Below are positions 2,413-25,107 of a stretch of 64,000 nucleotides of DNA, one piece after another. The stretch comes from Gammaproteobacteria bacterium. Lineage in GTDB: Bacteria > Pseudomonadota > Gammaproteobacteria > Steroidobacterales > GCA-2729495. The stretch covers positions 1 to 64,000 of the forward strand of contig JAJFJS010000061.1 in NCBI GenBank assembly GCA_021773815.1. The letters run 5' to 3'. The notes below the pieces were generated by a model. That model searched no databases. It worked only from the letters and a program-made list of their open reading frames with translations, and was not told the origin of the DNA. Both the position numbers and the translations under genes were made by a program. How positions within the stretch are numbered: position 1 is the stretch's first letter; each line of letters starts with the position of its first letter.

Positions 2413-3288
2413 CTACAGGCGACCGACGAAGCGCATCACGTGATAACGGCCGTCGTCTTCGACAACGGTAATCAATTCTTCCCCGGTCGTGCCGGACAGA
2501 TAACGCAGGACAGCGCCGGCCGTCCGCGAGCGGTACACACCCAAGGCCGCTTCCAGTCGTTCGAGCATCGGACACGCGGCACGAGCTGGTGGCGACACAT
2601 CGTCAGCGAACCAGATGCGGGCATCCGGTGACGCATCGAAACGGGCAAACCATGCTGACAGCGCGGCGACATCCGCCAGCGTGTCGACAGCGGCGAGCGT
2701 TGCCGACGGCACGCTCGCACCCGCCGGTCGCAACAGCAGCCAGTGACTGCCCTCGGCCAGCGGCACGTCGGCGCCGACCCCCAGTCGTCGTGCATGTTCG
2801 TCCAGCGGCAGCGATGCCTCATCGACGACGCCGACCAGCGCCTGCCCGATATCGCCACGCACGAGATCGAGCGTCGCCAGTTGCAGCGCCGCTTCGAGCG
2901 GCGCGGCGTCGCGGCTGACGAACTGGTTGCGCGCCGTCAAACCGAGGTTGCGCGCCACGTAGTAGCCCGCCGAATTGCTCAGCGTATTGATGAACGTCAG
3001 CGGCTTGGGCACGCGGCGGTCGATGAACATCTGGCGCTGCACGTTGACGGTATTGGCAATCGAGCCAAAACCCGAACTGATGTACAGGCCGGTATCGGCA
3101 GGCAACCGACCATCGCGCACGCAATGACCCGAGCCGAGCAGCGCGAGCTGCGTGAACCGGTCGATGCGCCGGAAGCGCTCACGGCAAACCGCGGCCAGCA
3201 GCGGCCGGAGGTCTTTGACTTCATGCAGTTGATCTGCGGCGCCCAGGTCCGCGTAGTACTCACCCGCCGCTGCAACTTCAATCCGCAC
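2413..3288 (-). CDS. Ketosynthase-like protein, probable chain-length factor
   Basis: This 291-residue protein looks like the N-terminal half of a beta-ketoacyl synthase. It has a YISSGFGS segment near residue 70 and TLSNSAGYYVARNLGL near 103-118, but where an active ketosynthase has the nucleophilic cysteine (TACSS) it reads FVSRDAAP, with no Cys. It also lacks the two HGT/GHT histidine motifs of full enzymes. It overlaps the 3' end of the complete ketosynthase at 3278-4456 by 11 bases. By analogy with aryl polyene and type II PKS systems, it would pair with that enzyme as a non-catalytic chain-length factor. A degenerate ketosynthase with another role is possible. Confidence 0.75.
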   Translation of the reverse strand: MRIEVAAAGEYYADLGAADQLHEVKDLRPLLAAVCRERFRRIDRFTQLALLGSGHCVRDGRLPADTGLYISSGFGSIANTVNVQRQMFIDRRVPKPLTFINTLSNSAGYYVARNLGLTARNQFVSRDAAPLEAALQLATLDLVRGDIGQALVGVVDEASLPLDEHARRLGVGADVPLAEGSHWLLLRPAGASVPSATLAAVDTLADVAALSAWFARFDASPDARIWFADDVSPPARAACPMLERLEAALGVYRSRTAGAVLRYLSGTTGEELITVVEDDGRYHVMRFVGRL

Positions 3289-4456
3289 GGCGCACGGTCT
3301 CCAGTATCACCGACGCGTTATTGCCGCCGAAGCCGAAAAAATTAAGCATGTAATACCCGGCCCCGGCGGGTCGGGCGCTGACCTGGGGCCGAACACCGAG
3401 TCGATCATCGTATTCGGCGAAGCCCGCGGTGGGCGGCAGCACGCCGGCCCGCAACGCGGCGACGATGAATGCGGTCTCGGTCGCTCCGCAGGCGCCCAGC
3501 GTATGGCCGATGCTCGATTTCAATGCGACGAACGGCGGCATGTCGGCAAAAACCTGACGCATCCCTGCCGCCTCCGCATCGTCGTTCATCGGACTCGCCG
3601 TGCCGTGCGCCTTGATCGCGGCAATGGCGTCGACCTCGATTCCGGCACTGGTTAGTGCCTCGCGCATGACGGCGGCGATGCGCGACCCGTCCGGATTCGA
3701 GGTCGAGATGCTGAACGTGTCGCAACCGCTCGCCCCGCCGGCAACGAACACGCCACCGACATCGGCCGAAGCCGCACGCAACACGATCGCGCCGCAGCCT
3801 TCGCCGAGCACCAGTCCGTTGCGGCGCCGATCGAAAGGACGCATGCAGTCATCGGCCAGCAGTTGCATGCCGCAGAACCCGGCGAGTGTCGTGAGATTGC
3901 CCAGTTCGACGCCGACCACCAGCGCCCGATCACAGCGGCCCGCCTCGATCGCTGCCGCCGCAACGAGCAATGCGTTGGCGCTCGATGTACACGCAGTGTT
4001 GAACAGGAAATCTGCGCCGGCCAGTCCGTGCTCGTGACGCAGGTAGCGGCTGACCTGCCCGAAGCCGGCCAGCGGCACGGCCAGCGCATCGGCATCGCCG
4101 GCGGCCAGCGCATCGGCAAACAGCGCCTCGGATTGACCGATCGCATAGGAAGACGACCCTATATAGACCGGCATCGACCGTCGGTCCGCCGCTTCGACGC
4201 CGGCCTCCGACAACGCGTGTTCGACGGCCAGACCGACGGACGCAAACGTCGCATCCTCGCGCGCGCCGGCAGCGTCGCTGCGCCGGATGGGCAGATAAGG
4301 CACATCGATCGGTTCGTCGAAGATGTCGAGCGTCCGGCAACGGTATGCGGGCGCGCCGCGCATGATGCCAGCCAGGTTGTCGTCCAGCCGGTCGCCCAGC
4401 GACGTCACGAGTCCGAGCCCGCAGATCTCCGCGCGACGCTCGCTGCCGGCCATCAT
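3278..4456 (-). CDS. Beta-ketoacyl-ACP synthase (ketosynthase A)
   Basis: This is a complete 392-residue FabF-type condensing enzyme. The catalytic triad is visible: Cys156 in NTACTSSAN, His284 in KAHGTASPMND, and His318 in SSIGHTLGACG. A glycine-rich FGFGGNNAS end motif is also present. It would catalyse decarboxylative Claisen condensation of malonyl-ACP onto a growing acyl chain. Its start overlaps the stop of the ACP gene (4453-4710) by four bases, and its end overlaps the chain-length-factor-like gene, so the three are translationally coupled. It is one of three full ketosynthases in the cluster. Whether it builds the aryl polyene itself or a second chain is unknown. Confidence 0.92.
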   Translation of the reverse strand: MMAGSERRAEICGLGLVTSLGDRLDDNLAGIMRGAPAYRCRTLDIFDEPIDVPYLPIRRSDAAGAREDATFASVGLAVEHALSEAGVEAADRRSMPVYIGSSSYAIGQSEALFADALAAGDADALAVPLAGFGQVSRYLRHEHGLAGADFLFNTACTSSANALLVAAAAIEAGRCDRALVVGVELGNLTTLAGFCGMQLLADDCMRPFDRRRNGLVLGEGCGAIVLRAASADVGGVFVAGGASGCDTFSISTSNPDGSRIAAVMREALTSAGIEVDAIAAIKAHGTASPMNDDAEAAGMRQVFADMPPFVALKSSIGHTLGACGATETAFIVAALRAGVLPPTAGFAEYDDRLGVRPQVSARPAGAGYYMLNFFGFGGNNASVILETVRRAD

Positions 4457-4710
4457 TCGGCCGTGATAAACGCGGCGAGATGATTGATCGATGTCAGCGC
4501 GGCACGGGTTTCGTTGCCGCTGTCAATGTGCCGGCCGTAGCGATCCTTGACCGCGAGCGAGATCGTCAGTGCGTCCAGAGAATCGAGCCCCAATCGGCAA
4601 TCGCTGCCGATCAGCTGTTCGTCGTCGAGGATCTCATCGGCGCCGATATCCATGTCGCATTCCTCGACGACCAGCGTCTTGAGTTCCCGTTTTAACGCTT
4701 CGATATCCAT
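4453..4710 (-). CDS. Acyl carrier protein (ACP 1)
   Basis: The 85-residue acidic protein carries the phosphopantetheine attachment motif GLDSLDAL with Ser44. This is the standard position for a discrete type II ACP. It would carry intermediates for the adjoining ketosynthase A and would need the phosphopantetheinyl transferase encoded at 22937-23602 or a housekeeping one. It is one of three ACP genes in the cluster, the other two being at 9471 and 24874. It sits six bases after the ABC permease gene and overlaps ketosynthase A by four bases, within one leftward operon. Confidence 0.93.
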   Translation of the reverse strand: MDIEALKRELKTLVVEECDMDIGADEILDDEQLIGSDCRLGLDSLDALTISLAVKDRYGRHIDSGNETRAALTSINHLAAFITAE

Positions 4711-4716
4711 GGCCGA

Positions 4717-5898
4717 TCAGTACCCGGCTCTGCGCCGCGAAATCACCAGCGCCAGAACCAGCATCAGACAGGAGAACCCGACGAGTCCCCCGCTCTCGGT
4801 CAGAATATCGCGCACCGAACCGCCGCGCAGAAACAGGTCGAGGTAACCCTCGAGACCCCAGGTCATCGGCGATACCCACGAAAAATCCTGCATCATCTGC
4901 GGCATCAAAAAACGCGGCACCATGACGCCGCCGATGGCCGCCATGATAATCGTCGCGACGCCGGTCAGGATCGTCGCCTGCTCATTCGTGCGCACCAGTT
5001 GCGCGATGAACAGGCCGAAAGACACCGCGGCGAGACTGGCCGCCGCGGACATCATCACGAGCCCGCCCCATGAATCACCGAGGACGAGGCGGTCGCCTCC
5101 CAGCGCCGGCACGAGGTAGACACCGACAATCAGCATCAGGACAACCTGGCACAGGTTGATGGCGAAGTACGGCAGCAACTTGCCCAGCAATAATTGCGAA
5201 GCCGGGAAAGACATGGTTTGCAGCCGCGCGAGCGTGCCGTTGTCACGCTCGGAAATCAGCGTGGTCGACAGCGGCACCGACACGAAGAACATCGCAAACA
5301 TCAGCCAGGCCGGTACGTTCTGCTGCACCGACGTGGGAATCTGCCGGCCGGCATCACCCTCGAAAAGAAAGTCGGCCTCGAGCAGACCGGCCAGCGTCTC
5401 CTGATCGACGGCCAGACCACCTTCCTCGAGAAAGGGCCCGAGACCCTCATCGAGATACAGGCCGATCAGCACCTGCCGCACGCGCGCCTCGAACAACATC
5501 GCGATCGGCAGCTCGATCCCCGGCGCGACCTCGAGGCGAACCGCCCGTTCCGCATCCGCGAGTTTCACATCGAAGTCAGGATCGACGATCAACAGAAACT
5601 TGACGCGATCCTGCCCGACCGCCTCACGCATCTGCTCGAGCGTGGCATCACTCTGTTTGCGCTCGAAGGCGCCAGGCTCATCCATGCGTCGCGCCAGTTC
5701 GGTGCTGCTCGCCGAGCCGGCCTGATCGACGAGGAAATATTCGATTCGTACCTGCCGGTGCGACTCGAAGCCGGACTGCAGCGCGAGCGACATGATCAGG
5801 ATAAACAGCGTCGGCATCAAAAACAGCAGCAACAGCGCATGCCGGTCGCGCATGACGAGTCGAAATTCCTTCTTGGCGAAATACCAGAATCTCGGCAT
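4717..5898 (-). CDS. ABC-2 type transporter permease
   Basis: This 393-residue inner membrane protein has the ABC-2 layout. One transmembrane helix lies near residues 22-42 (LLLLFLMPTLFILIMSLA), followed by a large extracytoplasmic domain to about residue 210 and then about five C-terminal helices. It follows the ATPase gene at one base's distance and precedes the ACP gene. With the ATPase it should form an exporter for a hydrophobic or lipid-like product of this cluster. The classic aryl polyene export route (MMPL plus LolA) is also encoded here, so this pair is an additional system. The substrate is an inference from context. Confidence 0.9.
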   Translation of the reverse strand: MPRFWYFAKKEFRLVMRDRHALLLLFLMPTLFILIMSLALQSGFESHRQVRIEYFLVDQAGSASSTELARRMDEPGAFERKQSDATLEQMREAVGQDRVKFLLIVDPDFDVKLADAERAVRLEVAPGIELPIAMLFEARVRQVLIGLYLDEGLGPFLEEGGLAVDQETLAGLLEADFLFEGDAGRQIPTSVQQNVPAWLMFAMFFVSVPLSTTLISERDNGTLARLQTMSFPASQLLLGKLLPYFAINLCQVVLMLIVGVYLVPALGGDRLVLGDSWGGLVMMSAAASLAAVSFGLFIAQLVRTNEQATILTGVATIIMAAIGGVMVPRFLMPQMMQDFSWVSPMTWGLEGYLDLFLRGGSVRDILTESGGLVGFSCLMLVLALVISRRRAGY

Positions 5899-5899
5899 G

Positions 5900-6823
5900 T
5901 CAGTCCCGCAGGGAATGGTTGGTGAAGTTCAGGAAGAGCTCTTCGAGGTTGCGCGTCCCGTACTGAATGCGGCTGATTTGCACACGCTGCCGATCCAGCG
6001 CCTGCAGAACACCGAGGATGCCGACGGCGGCGTTGATCTCGATGCTCAGGCAGTGTGGCTGTTCTGCGAACCGCAGCGTCCTCTCCAGTCCGTCGCGTTG
6101 TTCCTGCGTCAATGCTGCACGAATATCGACGATCAGCCTGCTCTGTTCACCGGCCCGCAACAGCGTTTCGAGCGAACCCTGGACGAGCACCTTGCCCGCA
6201 TCGATGATTGCGATGTCGTCGCACAGGCTCTCCACTTCCTCCATGTAGTGCGAGGTATAGATGACCGTCGTGCCCGCCCGGTTGATCGCGCGAATTGCCT
6301 CGAGGATAAAACGCCGCGAATGCGGATCGATGCCGACTGTCGGTTCATCGAGCAACAGCAACTGCGGCCGGTTCAGCAGGCCGATCGCCATATTCAGGCG
6401 TCGCTTCAGGCCGCCCGATAACCGGTCCACACGCTCGTCGAGGCGCTCGACGAGCCCGGTGGTCGCCGTGACTTCGGCAACCCGGGCATCGATTTCGGCC
6501 GCATCGAGGCGCTGCATGCGCGCAAAGAAACGCAGGTTCTCACGGACCGACAGTGTCGGGTAAAACGCGTAGTCCTGCGGCACGAGCGCGATCGCCGCCT
6601 GGGCATCGGCGCGCTGTCGCGTCAGGTCTGCGCCGGCAATCCGCACACTGCCGTGCCGGTACGCCAGCAAGCCGCAGAGGATCGACAGCAGAGTCGTCTT
6701 GCCCGCGCCGTTCGGACCGAGCAACCCGAGCAGGCTGCCGCGCGCCACGTTCAGGCGAATACCCGAAAGCGCCGGCGCCGTGGTTCGGGGATAGGAGAAC
6801 GTGAGATTGTCGACGCTGATCAC
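5900..6823 (-). CDS. ABC transporter ATP-binding protein
   Basis: The 307-residue ATPase has Walker A GPNGAGKT at residues 36-43, a Q-loop VPQDY near 81-85, the signature LSGGLKRRL at 135-143, Walker B LLLLDEP at about 155-161 and a switch His in YTSHYMEE. The C-terminal 80 residues form the extension common in ABC-2 multidrug or lipid exporters (CcmA/NodI type). It is the partner of the permease one base downstream. It sits between the chorismatase and the ACP/ketosynthase genes, so it is part of the pigment operon rather than a chance neighbour. Confidence 0.94.
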   Translation of the reverse strand: MISVDNLTFSYPRTTAPALSGIRLNVARGSLLGLLGPNGAGKTTLLSILCGLLAYRHGSVRIAGADLTRQRADAQAAIALVPQDYAFYPTLSVRENLRFFARMQRLDAAEIDARVAEVTATTGLVERLDERVDRLSGGLKRRLNMAIGLLNRPQLLLLDEPTVGIDPHSRRFILEAIRAINRAGTTVIYTSHYMEEVESLCDDIAIIDAGKVLVQGSLETLLRAGEQSRLIVDIRAALTQEQRDGLERTLRFAEQPHCLSIEINAAVGILGVLQALDRQRVQISRIQYGTRNLEELFLNFTNHSLRD

Positions 6824-6862: not shown

Positions 6863-7867
6863 TCAGATACCACCGGCAGCTTCGATCTCGAGCAGCAGTT
6901 CGCGTCGACAGATGTCACCACGCAGGAACACGAGACTCCGGTCTTCGGCGAGCGTGGATCGCAGCGCGGCTTCAATTTCCCCAATCTGTTCGGGACGACG
7001 CACATAGACGCGCAGACTGCCGCTGACAGGCATGCCATCGGCGCCTTCGTCGGCCTGAACCTCCTGCCGGGCCTGCCGGATCAGTTCGTCGAGATTGCGC
7101 AGCGTCTCCGCGGTCTGTTGTACCGGGTCTTCCAGGTGCATGGATTGGTGACCGACGATGCTGGCCGTGCCGGAAATCAGGATCCGGGAACCCCCCGGCG
7201 ATGCGATCACGACGGCACGAGAGAATGATGGACTGCGCGGCCCGTATTCGCGCGGATAACGATAGGCGCTGGTCTGCCGCGGATTTTCCACCATGCGGCA
7301 CCGATCGCGGGTCGCTATCGCCGAAATCGTGAACGGCGTACCGGCATCCGTACCGATGGCGGTGCCGGCCGGCAGCGCCTCACCCTGATAGGCGAATTCA
7401 CCGAACGCCAGGGCCCGGCCGGCCGTGAACTGCCGATACACTTCCCGGTCGCCTTCGCCGTCATTGATGCCGGGGAAATAATTCCAGACCCGGACGAGGT
7501 TCGGATAACCGCGTTCATGCGTCACGCGCAGCAACTCGCGGTAAATCTGCGTCGTCAGGTCGCCGAAATCGGTATGCTCGTCCAGATCGATCGCCACGTG
7601 CGCGGCCAGAAAATCTTCGCACTCGGCGATCCGGAAACTACCGACGGTCGAATGCGTAACGGCGCCACTCGTGAACCAGATTTCGTCCGGCGCCCGCGGC
7701 CCGATCGACTCGATATGAATCTGAAAAACACCGTCATCGCCGACTGATGCCGATTCGGTGTCGAATCTGAAGCGAAAGAATTCCTCGCATTTCACGGGCG
7801 CGGTCGACGGGTCCGTTGCCTGTCGAACATTAAGATCCGATTCCAATGATTTTGCCGTCACTGCCAT
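6863..7867 (-). CDS. xanB2: Chorismatase, XanB2/Hyg5/FkbO family (hydroxybenzoate synthase)
   Basis: The 334-residue protein shows the family's conserved blocks: VRVWNYFPGIN, YRQFTAGRA, ENPRQTSAYRYP, GPRSPSFSRA and ISGTASIVGHQS. Near the C-terminus, Cys320 and Glu327 lie seven residues apart in CRRELLLEIE. That spacing matches the Cys/Glu pair I recall for the 3-hydroxybenzoate-forming member Hyg5. Family members hydrolyse chorismate to 3- and/or 4-hydroxybenzoate or a cyclohexadiene diol. In Xanthomonas, XanB2 supplies hydroxybenzoates for xanthomonadin and ubiquinone. Here it should provide the aryl starter loaded by the AMP-ligase at 9828, and no ammonia lyase of the usual aryl polyene type was seen. 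Product ratio (3- versus 4-HBA) cannot be read from the sequence. Confidence 0.93.
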   Translation of the reverse strand: MAVTAKSLESDLNVRQATDPSTAPVKCEEFFRFRFDTESASVGDDGVFQIHIESIGPRAPDEIWFTSGAVTHSTVGSFRIAECEDFLAAHVAIDLDEHTDFGDLTTQIYRELLRVTHERGYPNLVRVWNYFPGINDGEGDREVYRQFTAGRALAFGEFAYQGEALPAGTAIGTDAGTPFTISAIATRDRCRMVENPRQTSAYRYPREYGPRSPSFSRAVVIASPGGSRILISGTASIVGHQSMHLEDPVQQTAETLRNLDELIRQARQEVQADEGADGMPVSGSLRVYVRRPEQIGEIEAALRSTLAEDRSLVFLRGDICRRELLLEIEAAGGI

Positions 7868-7971: not shown

Positions 7972-9240
7972 CTATCGCGCGCTCTTTTGACTCGACGGCG
8001 TCGTGGCCTGAGCGATGGCGTAGAGCAGTTTGAAGACCAACAGCCGCCAACGAACCGAGAAGCCGGCGTACACATCGCCGGCCAGCATGGATATCACAGC
8101 TTGCTCAAGCTTGAACCCGTTGCGGCTGTTCTGAAACAACTTCATCATGCCCGGCGTCATGAACCGATAAATGAACCAGGCAAACGTGCTGACGCCGCGG
8201 TTGATCATGTCCTGGTACTGTTTGACGGCTTTCCCGTACCCGGCCTGATCCTGTCGGAGCCAGCGCTCGGCGACCTCGACGATGCCCGCGGCGCTGGACA
8301 TCGCCAGATACACGCCGCTCGAAAAAACCGGGTCGATGAATGCATAGGCATCGCCGATCAGCGCGAACCCGTTGCCGATATTGTTGCTCGACAGATAGGA
8401 ATAGTTGCCCGTTGCCTGCACCGGCATGATCTGCTCGGCGTCGCAGACCCGTTGCCAGGCCCCTTCGCAGCGCTGCAACGTCTGGATGAAGAATTCATCC
8501 TGACCCGTTTCCCGCTGCTTGAAATGATCCGCATGGCAAACAGTTCCGACGCTCATCGTGTCGTCGGGCAACGGGATCATCCAGACCCAGCCGCCATCGA
8601 ACCAGTAAATGCTGATGTTGCCGGAATGCTTGCCGGCCCGGGTCTTCGCGCCGCGAAAATGCGTGAACATCGCCGCCGAGGCATGCCGCGGGTTGCGCGA
8701 CTTCCACTTCTCCTGCGAGGCGAGCAGCGTGTCCCGGCCGGACGCATCGACCAGGTAGCCGCAGGTCCAGACCGTCTCCGTGCCGTCTGGATCGCGCACA
8801 TGCACGCGGTGCGAACGGCCCCCGGCATCGAGTTCGACCCGTGTGACGCAGTGCTCTTCGCGGGCGTCGACGCCCGCGCTGCAACAATTGTCGAACAGCA
8901 GCTTGTCAAACTCGGCCCGCCGGATCTGATAGGCATGTGTCGGCGAGTCGCCGAGCGCCGCAGCGAACGGAAAGGTCTTGAAATCCTCGGCCTGCCCCGG
9001 TGTGCTGAAATCCGCGCCCGGCTTGTAGATGCCGATGCGCGCGACCTCTTCGAGCACGCCCAGTTCCTCGAAGATCGGCAGGTTCTTGGGCAACAGCGAT
9101 TCGCCAATATGAAAACGCGGATGCCGGTCCCGCTCGAATAACGTGACCGACCAGCCCTTGCGCTTGAGCAATGTCGCCGCGGTCGTGCCGGCCGGACCGC
9201 CACCGACGACGATCACATCACAATAGTTCGCTTGTTCCAT
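7972..9240 (-). CDS. FAD-dependent halogenase-like flavoprotein (halogenase 1)
   Basis: The protein (422 residues from the chosen ATG) has an N-terminal FAD fold VVGGGPAGTTAA at about residues 11-22. It has the halogenase-type GESLLPKNLP segment and then Lys73 in IYKPGADF, matching the catalytic lysine of flavin-dependent halogenases. The WxWxIP signature is present as WVWMIP at about 218-223. An FAD-ribityl motif LIGDAYAFIDPVFSSGV follows. Known relatives (PltA, CmlS, PrnA) use FADH2, O2 and halide. An ATG at 9276 would add 12 residues. I prefer 9240 because the extra residues are not part of the fold, although the GGGAGG-like ribosome site is 14 bases away. Bromination or chlorination of the aryl polyene is an inference. 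Confidence 0.85.
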   Translation of the reverse strand: MEQANYCDVIVVGGGPAGTTAATLLKRKGWSVTLFERDRHPRFHIGESLLPKNLPIFEELGVLEEVARIGIYKPGADFSTPGQAEDFKTFPFAAALGDSPTHAYQIRRAEFDKLLFDNCCSAGVDAREEHCVTRVELDAGGRSHRVHVRDPDGTETVWTCGYLVDASGRDTLLASQEKWKSRNPRHASAAMFTHFRGAKTRAGKHSGNISIYWFDGGWVWMIPLPDDTMSVGTVCHADHFKQRETGQDEFFIQTLQRCEGAWQRVCDAEQIMPVQATGNYSYLSSNNIGNGFALIGDAYAFIDPVFSSGVYLAMSSAAGIVEVAERWLRQDQAGYGKAVKQYQDMINRGVSTFAWFIYRFMTPGMMKLFQNSRNGFKLEQAVISMLAGDVYAGFSVRWRLLVFKLLYAIAQATTPSSQKSAR

Positions 9241-9358
9241 GATGCAGTTGCAGACCTCCCGGGATGCTCGCGGCACCCATGATAGCCACTTTCAACCCCT
9301 GATGTATCTTCGACCCGGGGGTGATCCGGGGCCGATACACGCCCCGGCGGCAGCTCTG

Positions 9359-9470: not shown

Positions 9471-9749
9471 ATGGCGGAAATGACTGATTTCGAAATGCGG
9501 CTGGCGACGCTGATATGCGAAGTCCTGAACCTTGAGGACATGGCGCCGGCCGATATCGACCCCGAGCAACCGTTGTTCGACGGCGGGCTCGGTCTGGACT
9601 CGATCGATGCGCTCGAGATCGCCGTGGCCGTCGCCCAGGACTATGACGTGCACCTGAAGGCCGAAGACGAGCAGACGCGGGAAATCTTCGCGACGCTGCG
9701 AAATCTCGCCAACCATATTCGGCAGGAAACAGATGCCGCGCCCGCCTGA
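9471..9749 (+). CDS. Acyl carrier protein (ACP 2)
   Basis: A 92-residue ACP with Ser44 in GLGLDSIDALEIAV, the phosphopantetheine attachment site. It is the first gene of the rightward unit and lies 78 bases before the aryl acid AMP-ligase. That placement suggests it receives the activated hydroxybenzoate starter, as the corresponding ACP does in aryl polyene systems. The start ATG at 9471 is preceded by the purine-rich GACGGGAT. A second in-frame ATG three codons later (residue 4) would also fit. Confidence 0.92.
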   Translation: MAEMTDFEMRLATLICEVLNLEDMAPADIDPEQPLFDGGLGLDSIDALEIAVAVAQDYDVHLKAEDEQTREIFATLRNLANHIRQETDAAPA

Positions 9750-9827: not shown

Positions 9828-11171
9828 ATGAACGATTCGCTGCCCCTGCTGACTCGCCACCCGGACGACATCCTCGCGATCGTCGGCGACCGGCCGATCA
9901 CCTGCCGCCAATTCCTGGCCGCGGCAACGGCGCTCGCGGAGGCGCTGCCGGACGCGCCGCTGGCCGTCAACCTGTGCGAGGATCGCTACGCCTTCCTGGT
10001 CGCATTCGCCGCCGCCGTGATCCGGGGCCAGGCCAACGTCCTGCTGCCGTCGCGCCAGCCTGCGGCCATTGTCGAGGCGCTGGCGCGGATCGACGGTCAC
10101 CACGTGATGCACGACGGGGCCATGCCCGAACTCGACGCCGACCGCATCGATGTCCGGCCGTTTACGAACCCATCCGCCGCGGTCGCTGACGTCGCCGTCC
10201 CGTCGATTCCCGCCGGACAGCTGTCGGCCATCGTGTTCACATCGGGCAGCACCGGCGAATCCACACAGATCAGAAAGTTCTGGCGCACCCTCGTCCAAGG
10301 CACGGCGATCAACCGGCGCTATACGCTGCAAGGCATCGACGGACCGGCCGGCATCGTCGCGACGGTACCGCCATGGCACATGTACGGCCTCGAATACACG
10401 GTGCTGCTGCCGTTGTTCGAGAACGTTCACACGTATACCGGCAACACGCTGTTCCCCGGCGACATCCGCAACGCGCTGGAGCGTACGCCCGGGCAGCGGA
10501 TATTCGTCACGACGCCCGTGCACCTGCGTGCCGTCCTGCGCGCCGGCCTCGCCTTTCCGCCCGTCCGCCGAATCCTGTGCGCGACGGCGCCGCTGACCCG
10601 GGAACTGGCCACGGACGCGGCCCGCACGCTCGGCGGCGACATCTGCGAACTGTACGGCTGCACCGAGGCCGGCTGCCTGGCGTACCGCAACCCGGTGACG
10701 ACGAACGACTGGACCTTCTTCGCAGAACTGCGCGTCAATCGCGCGGGCCGGCGTGTCAGCATCGACGCCGCACACCTGCCTGAACCCGTGATGCTGACCG
10801 ATGACCTGGTCTTCACGGCAGACGGGTGTTTCGAATTGCGCGGCCGCGGCGCCGACCTCGTTAAGATCGGCGGCAAACGCGGTTCGCTGGCCGAGTTGAC
10901 GAACCGGCTGCTGCAGATCGACGGCGTCGAGGATGCCGTCGTGTTCAGCCCCAACCCCGACGCGGCGGGCGACGGCAACGAGGCACGACTGTCGGCGCTG
11001 GTCGTCTGTCCCGGTCGCGACATCGACGCCGTCCGCGACGAACTGGCACAAGTCATCGACCCGGTCTTTATGCCCCGACCGCTACGGCGGGTCGACGCCC
11101 TGCCGCGCAACCAGACGGGCAAGATGCGCCGACTCGACCTGCAGCAGCTCGGCGACGACCCGACCGGATGA
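9828..11171 (+). CDS. AMP-dependent aryl acid:ACP ligase
   Basis: A 447-residue adenylate-forming enzyme. The ATP-binding motif FTSGSTGES is at about residues 137-145, the central VPPWHMYGLEY block is typical of the superfamily, and the C-terminal catalytic lysine is Lys432 in NQTGKMRR. It is shorter than acetyl-CoA synthetases (about 650 residues) and matches the short ligases of aryl polyene clusters that load benzoate-type starters on an ACP. It sits between ACP 2 and an LpxL-like acyltransferase, whose start overlaps its stop by four bases. The substrate, 3- or 4-hydroxybenzoate from the chorismatase, is inferred from context. Confidence 0.88.
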   Translation: MNDSLPLLTRHPDDILAIVGDRPITCRQFLAAATALAEALPDAPLAVNLCEDRYAFLVAFAAAVIRGQANVLLPSRQPAAIVEALARIDGHHVMHDGAMPELDADRIDVRPFTNPSAAVADVAVPSIPAGQLSAIVFTSGSTGESTQIRKFWRTLVQGTAINRRYTLQGIDGPAGIVATVPPWHMYGLEYTVLLPLFENVHTYTGNTLFPGDIRNALERTPGQRIFVTTPVHLRAVLRAGLAFPPVRRILCATAPLTRELATDAARTLGGDICELYGCTEAGCLAYRNPVTTNDWTFFAELRVNRAGRRVSIDAAHLPEPVMLTDDLVFTADGCFELRGRGADLVKIGGKRGSLAELTNRLLQIDGVEDAVVFSPNPDAAGDGNEARLSALVVCPGRDIDAVRDELAQVIDPVFMPRPLRRVDALPRNQTGKMRRLDLQQLGDDPTG

Positions 11172-12064
11172 CGGCGCCATGGCAGGCCAGACCCGAAGCC
11201 GGCACCACGCTGGCCATCCGGATCGCTATCTGGATCGCCCTGCACCTCGGGCGACGCATCCTCGGCCTCGTGCTGACCTTCGTCTCGGCTTACTTCCTGC
11301 TCGTACGCCGTGCCGAACGGCGGGCATCGCGCGCGTTCTGGCAGCGCGTCACCGGCCATCGGCCGTCGCTCGGCCAGGTGCTGAATCACTTCGCGACCTT
11401 CGCCCGCGTCACGGCGGACCGCGTCTATTTCCTGTCCGGGCGCACCGACGATATTCCTTTTGAGATCAGCGGCCTGGACATCATGGAACGCCACATACGG
11501 GCAAACCGGGGCTGCGTCATACTCGGCTCCCACCTCGGCAGCTTCGAGGCCACGCGTTTTGCATCGCTGCAGCACGCCGACAGTACCGTGCGCATGGTGC
11601 TGGCCCGCAAATTAAACGACAAGCTGATCCGCCAGCTTGAAACACTGAGCCCAGGATTCGCCGCCTCGCTGATCGATGCCGACCAACCTCCGGCGAAACT
11701 CGGCCTGACAATCGGCGAAGCGCTCAAGCGCGGCGAATCTGTCGGCTTTCTCGGTGACCGGTACCGGCCCGGCGATCGCACGACGACCTGCACGTTCCTC
11801 GGCGAACCGGCCCGCTTCCCGGTCGGCCCTTTGATCATCGCCGCCGTTTTTCGCGCGCCGATCGTCGCCATCTTCGGGATCTGGGTCAACGGGCGTTACG
11901 AGGTGCGTTGCGAGGAGTTATTCGATACGTTTGCCCTGGCACGCGGCGGCCGCGACGAAGCGCTGCAACAGGCGATGCAGCGTTACGTCGACCGGCTCGA
12001 GCACTATGTGCGACGGGCACCTGACAATTGGTTCAACTTTTATGATTTCTGGCAGACGGACTGA
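11168..12064 (+). CDS. LpxL/HtrB-type lysophospholipid acyltransferase
   Basis: This 298-residue protein has an N-terminal hydrophobic helix near residues 31-46. The HX4E acyltransferase motif reads SHLGSFEA with His122 and Glu127, and GDRYRPGDRT near 195-205 is typical of lipid A late acyltransferases. In aryl polyene clusters such enzymes are thought to transfer the polyene acyl chain to a lipid or sugar-lipid carrier. It overlaps the AMP-ligase by four bases and runs 23 bases into the LolA-like gene. Its substrate is unproven. A general membrane lipid acyltransferase is the alternative. Confidence 0.88.
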   Translation: MTAPWQARPEAGTTLAIRIAIWIALHLGRRILGLVLTFVSAYFLLVRRAERRASRAFWQRVTGHRPSLGQVLNHFATFARVTADRVYFLSGRTDDIPFEISGLDIMERHIRANRGCVILGSHLGSFEATRFASLQHADSTVRMVLARKLNDKLIRQLETLSPGFAASLIDADQPPAKLGLTIGEALKRGESVGFLGDRYRPGDRTTTCTFLGEPARFPVGPLIIAAVFRAPIVAIFGIWVNGRYEVRCEELFDTFALARGGRDEALQQAMQRYVDRLEHYVRRAPDNWFNFYDFWQTD

Positions 12065-12650
12065 CCTCGCACTGCTGCTGACGGCGCTGTTGTTGCTGTC
12101 GGCGGCGGGCGCCGATACGCCGGACGCCACGCCCGAGCAGGCCGCGGCTATCGTCGGCAGTATTGTCGACCGTATCGAGACGCCGCGCGATACGCCGATC
12201 CCGTTTGTCGAGCAACGCACCAGCCGGTTGCTCACCGAGCCGCTAACCCTCGACGGCGAAATCTGGTTCGCCGCCGACGGCACGCTGTCAAAACGGATCG
12301 GCGCACCGTTCGACGAACAGGTCACGATCTCGGCACGGCGCGTCGAAATGCGCCGCAACGGGAAAGTCCGGCGCCTGTCGATCGAGCGGCGACCGGACAT
12401 CAAGGCCTTCTATGCCGGGATGCAGGCCCTGCTGGCCGGTGACGTCATGGCTCTGTATTCGGCGTTCGATGTCGCCGCCGCGACGGATGCCGACGACTGG
12501 CGCCTCGAACTGACGCCCAAAGACGGACAGCTGAACCGGTTCGTCGCGCGCCTGGTCATCAGCGGCACCGGGTCGCGCGTGCGGATCGTGCGGACGGAGC
12601 AACCCGGCGGCGACTGGCAGGAAATGTCGTTCGCGCCCGCGGCGGACTGA
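12042..12650 (+). CDS. LolA-like periplasmic carrier protein
   Basis: The chosen ATG at 12042 gives a 202-residue protein beginning with a clear signal peptide (basic start, leucine-rich core LALLLTALLLLSAAGA). Longer in-frame starts lie inside the acyltransferase and would put residues before the signal. The mature part fits the LolA-like outer membrane lipoprotein carrier fold found in aryl polyene clusters, with FVEQRTSRLLTEPLTLDGEIWF and a final RIVRTEQPGGDW segment. It likely ferries the polyene lipid across the periplasm for the MMPL exporter that starts two bases downstream. The 23-base overlap with the upstream gene indicates coupled translation. Confidence 0.82.
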   Translation: MISGRRTDLALLLTALLLLSAAGADTPDATPEQAAAIVGSIVDRIETPRDTPIPFVEQRTSRLLTEPLTLDGEIWFAADGTLSKRIGAPFDEQVTISARRVEMRRNGKVRRLSIERRPDIKAFYAGMQALLAGDVMALYSAFDVAAATDADDWRLELTPKDGQLNRFVARLVISGTGSRVRIVRTEQPGGDWQEMSFAPAAD

Positions 12651-12652
12651 GC

Positions 12653-14962
12653 ATGGCCGCGTCGCACTCCCGGTCCCGGCGCGCCATCACCATAGGCGCG
12701 TGGCTGTTCCTCGCGGCGGCCTGCGGCCTGACCATTGCCGCGCGGCTCTCGATAACCGTCGACCTGGCCTATTTCCTGCCGCCGGCGGCGACGGAGCAGG
12801 AGCGCGTGCTCATCGACCGTCTCGGGCAGGGACCGGGGTCACAGCTGATCTTCGCAACGGTGACGGGCCGGGACCGGGCCGACGTCATGGCCAGGAGCGC
12901 CCGGCTGGCCGCCGCGCTGACCGGCTCGCCGCTCTTTACCCAGGTCCTCAGCGGCCAGGAAGAACTGACCCGCGAATCGATACCCGACGTCGTCTGGGCG
13001 CATCGTTACCTGCTGGCCGACATTGACGCCGACGCGGCCGGGCTGCGCCGCGCGCTGCAGGACAGACTCGCGGATCTCGCCGTGTTCTCCGGTGACGAGT
13101 TCGCCGATGTCCTGGCCGCCGACCCGATGCTGGCCGCGATGACCGTCATGGAAAGACTCGCCTGGTCGACAGAGTCGACGCTGCCGGACTGGACCGGTGC
13201 GGACGGCCGCTCCGCATTCCTGATCACCCAGGTCGCCGCACCCGCCTTCGACATCGGCGCACAGGCCGAAGCGATGGCGGCAATCCACGCGGCGGCGGCG
13301 GCTGTCGATGCCGCCCCGGCAACGCTGAACGGCGTCGGCGTCTACGGTGTCGAGTTACAGCACACGATCCGTTCCGAGGCGCAGTTTCGCAGCCTGCTCG
13401 CGTCGCTGGCGATCATCATCGTCCTGCTCGTGGCCTACCGGCGTTGGCGCATCACCGTGCTGGCCGTTGTGCCATTGGCGCTTGGCGCGCTGGCGGGCAT
13501 CGCCTGCATCGCGCTGATCTTCGGCCAGGTCCACGGTATTACGCTGGCGTTCGGCTTCACGCTGTTCGGCGTCGCCGTCGATTATCCGCTGCACGTCTTC
13601 AGCCATGCCCGCGGGCGACATCCGCAAGAAGCGATCCGGGCCGTGTGGCCGACGCTGCGACTCGGTGCCGCCAGCACGATCATCGCGTACCTGTCGGTGT
13701 CGCTGGCCGGATCGCGGGGCCTGGCGCAACTCGGCATCCTGTCATCGGTGGGTTTGCTCGTCGCGGTTCTGGCCACGCGTTCTTTGTTGCCGCTGCTGAT
13801 GACTCCGGCAACGGCCGGCGCACCGCGCGAGACCGGTCGAAGTTCAACGGCCCTCCGTCCGGCATTGCGCCACGGTGTCTGGATCATTGTATGCCTGATC
13901 GGCGGTGCGGTTATCGCCGCCCAGGGTTCGATCTGGTCCAACGACCTGTCAACAATGACGCCGATCGCGCCGGAGAAGCTGCGCCGAGACACGCAATTGC
14001 GCATGGCACTGGGCGCTCCGGATATTCGACACCTGATCGCGCTGCGCGCGCCGACCGAACAGGCGGCGCTCGAGGCGACCGAGACACTCGCCGCCGAACT
14101 CGATGCGGCACGAAACGACGGCCTGATTGACGGTTATCGCGTCGTGACCGACCTGTTGCCGAGCCACCGGACACAGCTCCGGCGCCGGGCCGCCGTGCGC
14201 GCGATCGACGCGCCGGCCGACATCGTCCGGCTGGCCGTCGACGGCACCCCGTTCCGCGCGGACGGCTTCGCGCCGTTTACCGCGGCGCTTGCGTCAACCG
14301 CCGAACAGGAGCCGCTGAATGCGATCGACTTCCAAAGCTCGGCGCTGGCCGGCTACGTCGATGCACACCTGGCCTTCGACGGCGAACGCTGGACGTCGTT
14401 CGCGACGCTGTTCGGCCTGACCGATCCCGAGGCGCTGGCAACACTGCTGCGCGAACGGTACCCGGACGCGACGCTCGTCGACCTGAAGCTCGCGTCACAG
14501 GCGCTCGTGCTGCGCTATCGCCAGCGTATTCAAGTCGTGCTGCTCGCGTCGCTGGCGCTCATTATTGTTTTCCTGATCGTGCGCGTCGGCTGGTCCGCGC
14601 GCCTGGGCTGGATCGTCGGCTCGCTGACCGCCTCGATGCTCGGCACCATCGCGTTGAATGCGACACTGGCCGCGCCGCTGACGATCTTCAACCTGATCGC
14701 GCTGGTGCTGGTCGCCGGTCTCGGCCTCGATTACGGGCTGTTCATGAGTCGTACCGAAGACGATGCCGAACAGGCGGCGCAGACCCGCCATGCCGTGCTC
14801 GTCTGCGTAGGCTCGACGCTGCTCGCCTTCCTGATCCTGGCCTTTTCATCGGTGCCCATCCTCGCCAGCCTGGGCACGACCGTCACGATCGGCGTAGCGC
14901 TGAACTACGCCGTCGCCACGCTGGGCGCGCGACGGCGCGGCCAAACCGGGACGCGACGGTGA
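12653..14962 (+). CDS. MMPL/RND-family lipid exporter
   Basis: A 769-residue membrane protein with the duplicated RND layout. There is one N-terminal helix and a periplasmic loop (about residues 35-245). A five-helix block follows (about 245-385, including FGVAVDYPLHVFSHARG), then a second helix and loop, and a second helix block from about residue 620 with LGLDYGLFMSR. The DYxL/DYGL segments match the proton-relay positions of MMPL transporters. In aryl polyene and xanthomonadin clusters this family moves the lipid-linked pigment out of the inner membrane. It overlaps the following SGNH gene by four bases. Confidence 0.92.
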   Translation: MAASHSRSRRAITIGAWLFLAAACGLTIAARLSITVDLAYFLPPAATEQERVLIDRLGQGPGSQLIFATVTGRDRADVMARSARLAAALTGSPLFTQVLSGQEELTRESIPDVVWAHRYLLADIDADAAGLRRALQDRLADLAVFSGDEFADVLAADPMLAAMTVMERLAWSTESTLPDWTGADGRSAFLITQVAAPAFDIGAQAEAMAAIHAAAAAVDAAPATLNGVGVYGVELQHTIRSEAQFRSLLASLAIIIVLLVAYRRWRITVLAVVPLALGALAGIACIALIFGQVHGITLAFGFTLFGVAVDYPLHVFSHARGRHPQEAIRAVWPTLRLGAASTIIAYLSVSLAGSRGLAQLGILSSVGLLVAVLATRSLLPLLMTPATAGAPRETGRSSTALRPALRHGVWIIVCLIGGAVIAAQGSIWSNDLSTMTPIAPEKLRRDTQLRMALGAPDIRHLIALRAPTEQAALEATETLAAELDAARNDGLIDGYRVVTDLLPSHRTQLRRRAAVRAIDAPADIVRLAVDGTPFRADGFAPFTAALASTAEQEPLNAIDFQSSALAGYVDAHLAFDGERWTSFATLFGLTDPEALATLLRERYPDATLVDLKLASQALVLRYRQRIQVVLLASLALIIVFLIVRVGWSARLGWIVGSLTASMLGTIALNATLAAPLTIFNLIALVLVAGLGLDYGLFMSRTEDDAEQAAQTRHAVLVCVGSTLLAFLILAFSSVPILASLGTTVTIGVALNYAVATLGARRRGQTGTRR

Positions 14963-20884: not shown

Positions 20885-21685
20885 TTATTCCCCGTCGATC
20901 GCGGTCACCCGCGCCATACGCAAACCCGTGGACCCGTTCAGCGGCCATTGTAGCGGCCCGCCGCCGTTGCCGGCGACCGCCTCGAGCAGCGCGACAGACC
21001 GGGCGGCGGGATTGTTCTCGGCCAGCGCGGCGAGCACCGGATGTCCGGGCGTCGGCCACGCCGGCCGGTCCGGTTGCGGCTCGACCGTCACGGTCCATGC
21101 ATCGTCATCGGAGACGTCGGCATCCAGCAGCAATGCCGCACCGAACGGTTCGCCGATCGGATAGACCTCACCGAGCGGACCGGGCACGACGATATCGGAG
21201 ACAACCAGCAACACCGGCCGGGCCTCGGCCGTCGACTGAACACAGGCCTCGAGCATCGCTGCCGGGAAACTCTCGCGCGACGCGGCAACCGAACTGCTCG
21301 GCGCGCGATTGGCGCTGGAGATCGACCAGTAACCGGCGGGCGCGTTATGCACCGAATTGTGGAAGCGCGTCGGCGACAACATCTTCGATTCGCCGGCCAG
21401 TGTCCGACACAGGTAATCGGTGATCTCGGTGTCACCCATCGAGGAGGCAAACACGGTCGCGATGTCATGTGCATCGATGCCGGCATTTGTACAAGCCTGG
21501 CCGGCAACCTCGACGGCCAGCCGGACCATCAGCGGTGCACGACGCCGCTCGCGGGCCGGGATCGCAGCCGGCGCGGGCGCCTGCCAGCCGGCATCGTGCG
21601 GTTTGCCGGCGACCAGCGCGCAAAACCCGTCCCAGTCCCGAATACCGGGACCCCAGACGCCGATGCCGCGAATCCCGATCCTCAT
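20885..21685 (-). CDS. Ketosynthase-like chain-length factor (short form)
   Basis: The 266-residue protein starts MRIGIRGIGVWGPG. It has FASSMGDTEITDYLC and FHNSVHNAPAGYWSI segments that match the N-terminal half of ketosynthases. In place of the catalytic Cys it has SSSVAASRESF, and the two His motifs of the C-terminal half are missing. This is the form annotated in aryl polyene clusters as the chain-length factor partner of a full ketosynthase. It overlaps the full ketosynthase (21682-22863) by four bases and ends four bases before halogenase 2. It is a second such subunit in this cluster, after the one at 2413-3288. Confidence 0.83.
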   Translation of the reverse strand: MRIGIRGIGVWGPGIRDWDGFCALVAGKPHDAGWQAPAPAAIPARERRRAPLMVRLAVEVAGQACTNAGIDAHDIATVFASSMGDTEITDYLCRTLAGESKMLSPTRFHNSVHNAPAGYWSISSANRAPSSSVAASRESFPAAMLEACVQSTAEARPVLLVVSDIVVPGPLGEVYPIGEPFGAALLLDADVSDDDAWTVTVEPQPDRPAWPTPGHPVLAALAENNPAARSVALLEAVAGNGGGPLQWPLNGSTGLRMARVTAIDGE

Positions 21686-22863
21686 GCGTCCGCGATCCCG
21701 AAGATCAGGCTGCAGTTATTGCCGCCGAAGCCGAATGAGTTCGACATTGCCGTAGCGATCCTCGCCTCGCGGTTATCGCGCAGCAGCCGCGAGGCGATGA
21801 CCGGTTCGGGCGCCTCGACATTGAGGTTGCCGGGCAGCAGGCCGGTCGCGAGCGCATCCATCGAGATGATCGCCTCGGTGATGCCGGCGGCGCCGAGCGT
21901 GTGGCCGGTCCAGCCCTTCGTCGAACTGACCGGTACCGACTCGGGGAACAGCCGCGCGCAGACACGGGCCTCGATGTCATCGTTTGCCCGGGTGCCGGTG
22001 CCGTGCATGTTGACGTAGCCGATATCGGCAAACGACAGGCCGCTGCGCTCCAGCGCAGCGCGCATCGCCAGCTCGGCGCCGAGGCCGTCGGGATGCGCGC
22101 TCGACATGTGATAGGCATCGCAGCTCTCGCCATAGCCGAGCAGGCCGATGTGCGGCGGTTCCCCCGGATCACGCACCAGCAGCGCAAAACCGGCCGCCTC
22201 ACCAAGATTGATGCCGTCACGCTGCCGATCAAACGGCCGGCACGGTTGCCTGGACACGAGTTGCAGTGAATGAAAACCGTGGATCACGCTCAGGCACAGG
22301 CTATCAACTCCGCCGACGACGACAGCATCGGCCACATCGCAGGCGAGCCAGCGCGCTGCGGCGGCAAAAACCTTCGCGCTCGACGAACAGGCCGTACTGA
22401 TCGTCATGGCCGGGCCGGTGATGCCCAGTTCTCCAGCAACAAATGCGGATGCTGAATGCGGGTGAGGCACCTGCGGCTGCCGATAGCGGGGCGCAAACTC
22501 TCCGTCTTTCAGGTTTGCATAGGCGGCCTCGGTCCGGCCGATGCTTGACGTGCTCGTGCCAGCGATCACGGCGCAGCGGGCCGCGCCGAATCGGCCAACA
22601 GCCGCATCGACTGATGCGCGGAAGTCATCGGCTCCGAGCGCATACATCGCCAGCCGATTGTTGCGGCAGTCGAACGCCGGATTGATCGATGCCACGGCGG
22701 ACTCAAGCCCGGTGACGCGCCCCAGCCAGGTATCAATATCCGAACCCGGCCACGGTCCCGGGGTCAACCCGCTGCGCCGCGCCGCGAGCGCGTCCCGCAT
22801 GGCGCCGATGCCGCGACCGACCGCGCAGGTCAGCGTAGCCGCAACGACGGCGACGGGTCGCAT
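21682..22863 (-). CDS. Beta-ketoacyl-ACP synthase (ketosynthase B)
   Basis: A complete ketosynthase of 393 residues from the ATG at 22863. Cys159 is in ISTACSSSAK, His287 in NMHGTGTRANDD and His321 in TGHTLGAAG, with the closing NSFGFGGNNCS motif. An upstream in-frame ATG at 22905 would add 14 residues (MCRGRSRC...) that do not resemble a ketosynthase start, so the shorter form is preferred. Its stop overlaps the start of the short chain-length-factor gene. By analogy this pair corresponds to the heterodimeric polyene-elongating ketosynthase of aryl polyene systems. Confidence 0.92.
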   Translation of the reverse strand: MRPVAVVAATLTCAVGRGIGAMRDALAARRSGLTPGPWPGSDIDTWLGRVTGLESAVASINPAFDCRNNRLAMYALGADDFRASVDAAVGRFGAARCAVIAGTSTSSIGRTEAAYANLKDGEFAPRYRQPQVPHPHSASAFVAGELGITGPAMTISTACSSSAKVFAAAARWLACDVADAVVVGGVDSLCLSVIHGFHSLQLVSRQPCRPFDRQRDGINLGEAAGFALLVRDPGEPPHIGLLGYGESCDAYHMSSAHPDGLGAELAMRAALERSGLSFADIGYVNMHGTGTRANDDIEARVCARLFPESVPVSSTKGWTGHTLGAAGITEAIISMDALATGLLPGNLNVEAPEPVIASRLLRDNREARIATAMSNSFGFGGNNCSLIFGIADA

Positions 22864-22936
22864 CGGCGTCAACATCGGGGCGCATCGACTGCGACCGCGG
22901 CACATCGGCGGCGGCGCCAGAAAATAGCCGGAATAT

Positions 22937-23602
22937 TCAAGAGTGAAGCCTGCCCTCGGGGGCGGTTATTGTGCGTATCCGCGCAGATTCCACGTCGGCG
23001 GCGAGCGTGTCAACCCGAAACGGGCGCACCGGCTCCAGAGGCCCCGGACGCACCACGACGCTGAGCCAGAAGCGACCCGGACACTGCCAGCTCCAGCCGG
23101 CCCAGCCGTCGCCGGCCACCGCCCCCGTAGCACCGGCAATATGCGCCGGCGTCCGGGTATCGAATGCCGCCCGCACCTCGCGGTGGCCGCCGTCGGTCAT
23201 CGCCTTGACCAGCGATTCCCATAACGTCCACAGGTGCAGGAATTCATCGGCGGTCGGCACACCGTCGCATGCCCACCATGTCGCGGGCCACGCGAGGTGG
23301 TGAGCGATCGCCGCATGGCGCCGCATCCGGTACCGTTCGATATCGACGCCGATCGGTCCCGCATCGCCGACAGCCGCCACCAACCAGTCGCCGCTGTGCG
23401 CGAGGCTCACGGCCGGCAACTCGGCGGGTCCGTCGACCACGACACGCGCGCCGGTCGCCGTGTGAGCCAACTGCCAGTCGCCCGGTTGCGTGCCGGTGCG
23501 GTGAGCCAGCGCCAGGTACAGCAGCCTCGTACCGGCCAGCCGGCGCACGTCCACCGTCGCGGTGGCGGCCTGGTCGCGCAACAGGTAGAGCTCCATGGCC
23601 AC
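22937..23602 (-). CDS. 4'-phosphopantetheinyl transferase (Sfp type)
   Basis: This 221-residue protein has the two hallmark motifs of the Sfp/AcpT superfamily. These are GVDIE at residues 85-89 (metal binding) and WTLWESLVKA at 125-134, where Glu129 and Lys133 match the WxxKEAxxK signature. It would convert the three cluster ACPs to their holo forms using coenzyme A. It is the first gene of the leftward unit, with ketosynthase B next. It is divergent from the PlsC-like gene across a 260-base gap that should carry both promoters. No clear promoter was read there. Confidence 0.9.
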   Translation of the reverse strand: MAMELYLLRDQAATATVDVRRLAGTRLLYLALAHRTGTQPGDWQLAHTATGARVVVDGPAELPAVSLAHSGDWLVAAVGDAGPIGVDIERYRMRRHAAIAHHLAWPATWWACDGVPTADEFLHLWTLWESLVKAMTDGGHREVRAAFDTRTPAHIAGATGAVAGDGWAGWSWQCPGRFWLSVVVRPGPLEPVRPFRVDTLAADVESARIRTITAPEGRLHS

Positions 23603-24873: not shown

Positions 24874-25107
24874 ATGACAGACAACATTCTTATACAACTC
24901 AGGAACGTCCTGACCGAGGATTTCGATATCGATCCCGATATCGTCGTCGCGGAGGCGCGCATCTACGAAGATCTCGATATCGACAGCATCGATGCCATCG
25001 ACCTGATCGTCCGGCTCAAAGAGATTTCGGGCAAGAAGATTCCACCCGAGCGTTTCAAGGAAGTCCGGACTGTCGGAGATATCGTCGCCATCCTGAGCAC
25101 CCTATGA
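24874..25107 (+). CDS. Acyl carrier protein (ACP 3)
   Basis: The 77-residue ACP starting at the ATG at 24874 has Ser38 in LDIDSIDAIDL, the phosphopantetheine site. The same frame is open upstream to 24691, but that part is arginine- and proline-rich and unlike any ACP, so the short form is used. A GTG one codon earlier is also possible. The 200-base space after the PlsC gene may hold an internal promoter. The gene overlaps the following membrane protein gene by four bases (ATGA). It likely serves as the polyene-elongation ACP. Confidence 0.92.
   Translation: MTDNILIQLRNVLTEDFDIDPDIVVAEARIYEDLDIDSIDAIDLIVRLKEISGKKIPPERFKEVRTVGDIVAILSTL

Follow-up and report, generated by a model that had tools for sequence, protein, structure and literature searches.

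We analysed a 64,000-nucleotide stretch of DNA from a gammaproteobacterium (GenBank assembly GCA_021773815.1, contig JAJFJS010000061.1, positions 1 to 64,000; hereafter the window), whose left edge is the first base of contig C107 in a genome of 149 contigs. Window bases 2413-31643 hold an aryl polyene pigment cluster together with an extra module, which includes a second ketosynthase (KS), KS2, and its half-size partner, CLF2, which resembles a chain-length factor (CLF). We conclude that this second KS/CLF pair almost certainly belongs with the dialkylresorcinol (DAR) genes, dar, which we found on a neighbouring contig, C67. It is fairly probable that the window and C67 make up one aryl polyene-DAR hybrid cluster of the arcuflavin/flexirubin type, in which the second pair provides the DAR arm with acyl chains; the pigment made would then probably be of a flexirubin-like kind, with two parts. 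The five genes of the module, with their dar positions in the Azoarcus BH72 gene table, are:

2413..3288, minus strand: CLF2, Cys-less half-size ketosynthase-like partner (darK position), 291 aa; PF00109 at 23.4 bits (cut-off 20.8).
3278..4456, minus strand: KS2, ketosynthase (darJ position), 392 aa; Cys-His-His intact; separate clade of 19, support 100/97.
4453..4710, minus strand: ACP2, acyl carrier protein (darC position) with a DSL motif; under cut-off for both NF006617 (49 bits, cut-off 70) and PF00550 (18.6 bits, cut-off 20.8).
4717..5898, minus strand: ABC-2 type permease (darI position), PF12698; 33-50% identical in 18 other loci.
5900..6823, minus strand: ABC ATPase, drrA-like (darF position), PF00005; NCBIfam drrA below its cut-off; part of the conserved module.

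The original prediction, made from the window, described two pairs of a ketosynthase with a Cys-less partner and a stand-alone third ketosynthase at 28033. Coordinates, triad and matches to PF00109 and PF13723 bear this out, and the cluster holds three acyl carrier protein (ACP) genes. A further claim, that the third ACP gene is fused in translation to the leftmost pair (our KS2/CLF2), was half right: the gene exists, but its stop and the KS2 start share 4 bases (ATGA), and ACP2 and KS2 are translationally coupled, not fused. The KS2 and CLF2 genes overlap by 11 bases. KS2 has the Cys-His-His triad of a functional ketosynthase, with the Cys in NTACTSS and the two His in HGTASPMND and KSSIGHTLG. 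The other pair, whose genes overlap by 4 bases, and the third ketosynthase are:

20885..21685, minus strand: CLF1, ApeC-type; PF13723 at 102 bits (above cut-off 25).
21682..22863 (open frame to 22905), minus strand: KS1, ApeO-type; NF006618 at 475 bits (above cut-off 407); ApeO clade, 100/98.
28033..29259, plus strand, start ATG at 28033: KS3, ApeR-type; NF006587 at 683 bits (above cut-off 470); ApeR clade, 100/100.

The start of KS1 at 22863 is likelier than the frame start at 22905, since the family model begins at residue 15.

A phylogeny against ApeO and ApeR, as the prediction had proposed, put the three ketosynthases in three separate clades. This maximum-likelihood tree holds 52 ketosynthases, 5 of 57 having been dropped as long multidomain proteins (two from locus L018, two from L019 and one from L020); KS3 was entered from 28030, with one residue extra ahead of the Met, the L014 sequence includes unread bases, and the long branches are L015_10001, L061_10268, L062_10168, L059_10067 and L058_8380. 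KS1 grouped with E. coli ApeO and 10 others (12 of 12 rows), and KS3 with E. coli ApeR and four others (6 of 6 rows). KS2 was not in the clade of E. coli ApeO; it stood in a third group, all 19 DarJ-type proteins lying on one side of one branch. Hence, by their ketosynthases, KS1/CLF1 is placed as an aryl polyene pair and KS2/CLF2 is not, and from the sequence comparisons the aryl polyene set is assigned as KS1/CLF1 for ApeO/ApeC and KS3 for ApeR. On the ApeO-type model KS2 reached 205 bits, less than half of the score of KS1. Neither outcome that the prediction had set against itself was seen: only the KS2 pair lies outside the aryl polyene clade, and the pairs are not recent duplicates with one copy inactivated, KS1 and KS2 being 33% identical and both retaining the triad.

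The triad is complete in 18 of the 19 DarJ-type proteins, KS2 included. His257, reported in the accessible text of PMC8358021 as conserved in aryl polyene ketosynthases, is His in 12/12 ApeO and 6/6 ApeR rows; in the 19 DarJ-type proteins the column holds Ser (15), Asn (2), Gly (1) and His (1). In mapping residues from A. baumannii ApeO (PMC8358021), Ala166, Cys167, Phe205 and His257 agreed with the fragment used; Phe85 and Val89 (Thr and Lys in the fragment) and His138 were left out. By our own match of place, 3 residues after an Asp, His257 would correspond to His268 of loop 2, a loop that, according to the accessible part of PMC7138838, includes His268 and may tune specificity. The Asp that starts loop 2 is linked there to chain offloading between condensations. 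It is kept in 19/19 DarJ-type proteins, and KS2 keeps both this Asp and the gate motif as in ApeO. Therefore, KS2 should act stepwise rather than as an aromatic polyketide synthase.

Homologues of CLF2 stand in 18 other loci, each within the same arrangement of genes. Our profile of the family has 16 rows, L053 (cut by a contig end) and L056 and L059 (unclear start) being left out, and Cys is absent from the column aligned with the KS Cys in 16/16. Near the N-terminus the family carries a basic pair, Arg-Arg or, in L063 and L064, Arg-Lys, at the place where ApeC-type proteins (a set without L022, whose open frame runs through KS and CLF) have an invariant Arg-Arg; the accessible text of PMC8358021 proposes that this pair contacts the ACP. 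PF00109 (ketoacyl-synt) matches 8 of the 16 members and is the only Pfam match of CLF2, PF13723 giving none. The family aligned by hhalign at 91% to ketosynthases and at 79% to ApeC-type CLFs. Against the PDB, the 16-sequence profile gave 14 matches up to E 0.1, the best to a FabF-type ketosynthase (5e-6), with 6kxd_B at E 0.001 and 7f28_A at E 0.07; a 3-sequence profile gave two (E 0.21 and 0.34), and an AlphaFold model from 3 sequences was poor (mean pLDDT 44.9, pTM 0.37). Thus, the profiles support a KS-like N-terminal half in CLF2, and the "hypothetical" darK looks like a chain-length-factor-like half-ketosynthase. A CLF2 search of plasmids gave no match. In a limited search of open-access titles and abstracts we found no description of darK as a chain-length factor, which does not prove that there is none.

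The module is a conserved unit. Its order (ABC ATPase, ABC permease, ACP, KS, partner) and strand are kept in 18/18 other loci, which comprise 16 genomes from our class survey plus L013 and L014; in L014 KS and partner are separated by an opposite open frame, in L053 the contig stops within the partner, and in L062 the partner is recognised by profile only. The closest named relatives of KS2 (51%) are in two Cellvibrionales metagenome-assembled genomes, L013 and L014, whose ACPs are 65-68% identical to ACP2 (the E. coli ApeE-type ACP, 38%). In both, the module faces four genes. Three of these in L013 match the NCBIfam DarH, DarG-family and StlD/DarB-family models above cut-off, and the fourth is DarA-like, a name given by position and the Azoarcus table, no model having matched. 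dar genes lie inside the fetched stretch in 13 of the 18 loci. The stretches from L050, L053, L060, L063 and L064 have none, and DarB and DarH are elsewhere in these genomes (in G130 both are on the contig of the module, about 13 kb off).

We searched 369 genomes of the class, our own included, with the CLF2 profile. Matches were found in 21 genomes, 17 with E < 1e-13 and 4 with E > 1e-7; the DarB-family model likewise scored above cut-off in 21. All 17 strong CLF2 matches were in genomes with DarB above cut-off. With all 21 matches counted, the CLF2-by-DarB table reads 17/4/4/344 (Fisher p 4e-22), and without our own genome 16/4/4/344 (p 6e-21), both uncorrected for shared ancestry. DarH was detected in 18 of the 21 DarB-positive genomes, including all 17 with CLF2, and CLF2 was found in 17/18 DarH-positive and 0/3 DarH-negative DarB-positive genomes (Fisher p 0.003, n=21, relatedness uncorrected). 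It is thus darG/darH, and not the ring-forming pair, that the module accompanies. It does not track ApeR, which is above cut-off in 12/17 genomes with CLF2 and 3/4 without. The suggestion in the original prediction of a separate acyl tail, possibly exported by the adjoining ABC pair, came close: the second pair is locked to the ABC pair and tracks dialkylresorcinol genes.

The dar genes could not be seen from the window because darA, darB, darG and darH are on the neighbouring contig. On C67, DarB scored 599.6 bits (StlD/DarB family cut-off 450), a DarA-like gene is 60% identical to that of L013, and DarG and DarH follow directly (169.7 bits, cut-off 70; 447.7 bits, cut-off 300). Hence the genome has the aryl polyene set together with DarA, DarB and a BtrH-type DarH, the gene content of a hybrid cluster. 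darA and darB are in the same genome as the second pair and probably near it, the nearness being given only by this contig overlap:

1..141, no strand: overlap with the end of contig C67 (darA-B-G-H); all 141 bases identical, a stretch present just twice in the genome.

A TonB-type outer-membrane receptor, named by eye and not by model, is split by the contig boundary (window 1-2045, minus strand; L048 ~12163-12626), and its frame is continuous from the C-terminal part on C67 into the receptor at the window start. The overlap and the continuous frame put the end of darH about 3 kb from the CLF2 end with the receptor between, so that darA-B-G-H probably lies about 3 kb to the left of the second pair; this placement comes from the assembly and not from reads. 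The dar set is thus interrupted by the receptor gene, with one half on either side. The window holds five copies (2239, 2317, 19239, 31733 and 31811; 0 expected) of a palindromic repeat of 21 bases, AATTGGTGTCnGACACCAATT, and copies or near-copies are also on C67 (L048 ~11968 and ~12046), so flanking the receptor between darH and CLF2; the repeat may mark an insertion. We also searched 60 genomes, our own and 59 relatives (36 of the same family), 48 of the 60 being at least 90% complete. DarA was absent from all 59 relatives, their KS2 matches did not exceed 38% identity, and the best 11 fetched matches fell outside the KS2 group, those of G009, G021 and G022 (same family) with ApeO. Thus, the dar set looks like an accessory of this species.

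Gene identities, the triad, the separate clade, gene order, darB/darH co-occurrence and the contig-end overlap are read from the sequence, and from them we infer substrate, product, timing, ester formation and export as follows. KS2 with the half-size CLF2 would extend acyl chains on ACP2, with release of the chain following every condensation. DarB would receive the beta-ketoacyl-ACP and the enoyl form that a shared reductase and dehydratase make from it, and would join two chains into a ring for DarA to aromatise. DarH, a BtrH-type acyltransferase, would then link resorcinol and polyene acid as an ester, with the ABC pair moving the product or part of it. We regard the acyl-supply step by the second pair as evenly poised between true and false.

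Several observations weigh against this scheme or against the naming behind it. DAR genes yielded DAR in E. coli (accessible text of PMC3949708), and C. pinensis darA/darB did so in a foreign host (accessible text of PMC3992019). Host fatty acid intermediates can therefore feed DarB, and a dedicated ketosynthase would set chain identity and flux rather than enable the reaction. Of the DarB-positive genomes, G278, G255 and G162 gave no match to DarH; two of these three are 82-85% complete. Around darAB they carry neither darG nor the module, and no dar genes except darA and darB occur in the fetched stretch. Ring formation as such therefore does not depend on the pair. In G189, which has darA-B-G-H, the genome yielded no match to CLF2; the contig with these dar genes ends about 1 kb past darH. 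All 4 weak CLF2 matches are in genomes without DarB above cut-off, and no CLF2 match came from 4 genomes whose DarB-like matches are full-length and score below the cut-off (313-413 bits); the CLF2 search scored at most 6 first-look candidates per genome, so that a miss is not proof of absence. The L062 KS2-type protein (10168-11136) has Gln in place of the first catalytic His and may be without condensation activity. Our DarB stays below the cut-off of a narrower DarB model (498.5 against 550), as does our DarG on a flexirubin DarG model (131 against 170); the flexirubin-specific names are thus not borne out, and our DarA matches no model. The equivalence with Azoarcus darJ/darK was drawn by order and annotation only.

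The same tracking of darH/darG rather than darA/darB alone could mean that the second pair acts late, with ACP2 bringing the polyene acid, finished or extended by KS2-CLF2, to DarH for transfer to the resorcinol. An ACP is the acyl donor of BtrH-type acyltransferases, and ACP2 is closest to an ApeE-type ACP (38%). However, mere transfer needs no ketosynthase with an intact triad (18/19) and a half-size partner, and flexirubin-type polyene acids are not known to have an unreduced last extension; we consider this role unlikely. Because a full elongating active site is kept, we prefer acyl supply for the resorcinol that is to be esterified. An extra polyene synthase for another chain length would have a reductase and dehydratases at hand in the same cluster, and KS2 shares the loop-2 Asp and gate motif with ApeO. 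The idea, which the original prediction had also raised, is left without support by the separate clade of KS2; the exchange of His257 for Ser in 15/19 DarJ-type proteins and the relatives that carry ApeO-type ketosynthases (G009, G021 and G022), although none of the 59 has DarA or a close KS2, further argue against it, and we hold it to be improbable.

If the module served a third, unrelated metabolite and only had dar genes as neighbours, this would agree with the 5/18 loci without a dar gene in the fetched stretch. Yet in all five genomes DarB and DarH are present outside that stretch, in G130 on the contig of the module, and the strong CLF2/DarB co-occurrence (17/17) makes this explanation very improbable. 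Hardly any weight is left for the second pair as a redundant or decayed ApeO/ApeC copy: recent duplication or decay of one pair is ruled out by the 33% identity, the intact triad, the own clade and the coupled overlaps.

DarA and DarB explain the resorcinol ring, and neither the origin of its chains nor the joining of ring and polyene. A KS/CLF/ACP set that follows the presumed ester-forming darH is a testable candidate for this gap, and the module with darG/darH would be a simple genomic mark by which ester-hybrid clusters could be told apart from those for an aryl polyene or a resorcinol alone. We tentatively propose, as a possibility short of an even chance, that DarJ/DarK are a third, hitherto unrecognised class of type II ketosynthase heterodimer with a half-size CLF, distinct from ApeO/ApeC, having its own ACP and ABC pair and dedicated to the resorcinol or esterification arm; two independent KS/CLF lines would then operate in parallel within one cluster, sharing one reductase/dehydratase set. 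What is new here is modest: in the literature searched we found no description of the extra pair as a ketosynthase clade of its own, joined to a CLF-like half-size partner and tied to darG/darH.

The remaining genes fit an aryl polyene cluster that has a third carrier, ACP1 and ACP3 being the usual two and ACP2 the third. The minus-strand block at the left of the window comprises halogenase, chorismatase, ABC ATPase, ABC permease, ACP2, KS2 and CLF2. The other assigned genes are:

6863..7867, minus strand: chorismatase, XanB2/FkbO-Hyg5-type; PF21168; TIGR04444 at 208 bits (under cut-off 325).
7972..9276, minus strand: flavin-dependent halogenase-like protein; PF04820; 46% identical genes beside the module in L056 and L060.
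9471..9749, plus strand: ACP1, ApeE-type; NF006617 at 100.8 bits (above cut-off 70).
9828..11171, plus strand: AMP ligase for the aryl starter; PF00501.
11931..12650, plus strand: LolA-like carrier; PF19574.
12653..14962, plus strand: MMPL exporter, aryl polyene type; PF03176.
22937..23602, minus strand: phosphopantetheinyl transferase; PF01648.
24874..25107, plus strand: ACP3, ApeF-type; over 24874-25104 it is 51-56% identical to ACPs of E. coli and L014.
25730..26365, plus strand: ApeI-like dehydratase; PF22818.
26835..27299, plus strand: ApeP-like dehydratase; PF22817.
27296..28033, plus strand: ApeQ-like ketoreductase; PF13561.

ACP1 is 46% identical to an ACP of E. coli CFT073 (L065:45424-45681). 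The chorismatase is expected to provide a hydroxybenzoate starter, and gene content indicates that the aryl end is chorismate-derived and possibly halogenated. The halogenase genes that adjoin the ABC module elsewhere are at 4467-5708 in L056 and 13782-14984 in L060. Further cluster genes encode a lipid-A-type acyltransferase, a PlsC-like acyltransferase, a thioesterase and a glycosyltransferase, and a PQQ-dependent dehydrogenase-type beta-propeller gene lies within the cluster (17198-19234, plus strand). A B12-binding radical-SAM protein (29308-30897, plus strand) is 68% identical to the product of a gene near darA in L054 and is a possible tailoring enzyme of hybrid pigments.

Among known systems, the actinobacterial ishigamide synthase Iga11-Iga12 (6KXD) is a highly reducing type II KS-CLF and is not known to come with resorcinol genes. 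Its CLF is full-length (378 residues), in contrast to the half-size CLF2; the accessible text of PMC7138838 names the synthase as a polyene polyketide synthase. ApeO-ApeC (6QSP, 7F28; accessible text of PMC8358021) resembles KS2/CLF2 in joining a full ketosynthase, with gate motif, to a half-size Cys-less partner. KS2/CLF2 differs in lying outside the ApeO clade, in having Ser for His257, in its 205 bits (cut-off 407) and in having no PF13723 match. The clusters for xanthomonadin and the L. enzymogenes yellow pigment share XanB2, a ketosynthase with half-size partner, LolA, ACP, ketoreductase and dehydratase with ours, and that of Xanthomonas also the halogenase; they have one KS/partner pair and no DAR arm, as far as described in the accessible part of PMC3691225. 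The Bacteroidota flexirubin clusters (flx/dar) likewise give an ester pigment from an aryl polyene and DarA/DarB; they start from tyrosine, whereas the window cluster has a chorismatase (accessible text of PMC3992019).

Outside Bacteroidota, an aryl polyene-DAR ester cluster is already known from Azoarcus, in the accessible text of PMC3949708, and one is predicted in Pseudoalteromonas, in that of PMC9966250. The Azoarcus BH72 table in PMC3949708 gives the order darK-J-C-I-H-G-F-E-D-B-A and annotates darK as hypothetical, with no domain, darJ as KS, darC as ACP, darI as permease, darF as ATPase and darE as BtrH-like; its darH (PilT domain) and darG (prevent-host-death) are different genes from the NCBIfam DarG/DarH used above. 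Once this inner darH/darG pair is set aside, the five-gene order is the same as here. The arcuflavin cluster, so far as that source describes it, shares, likewise in matching order, KS, ACP, ABC permease, ABC ATPase, BtrH-like protein, small protein, DAR cyclase and DAR aromatase with ours, and its companion polyene cluster has XanB2 and halogenase genes. Only Azoarcus has the PilT/antitoxin-type pair between the ABC genes and polyene clusters that are unlinked, whereas here a receptor gene splits the dar set into two halves that face each other.

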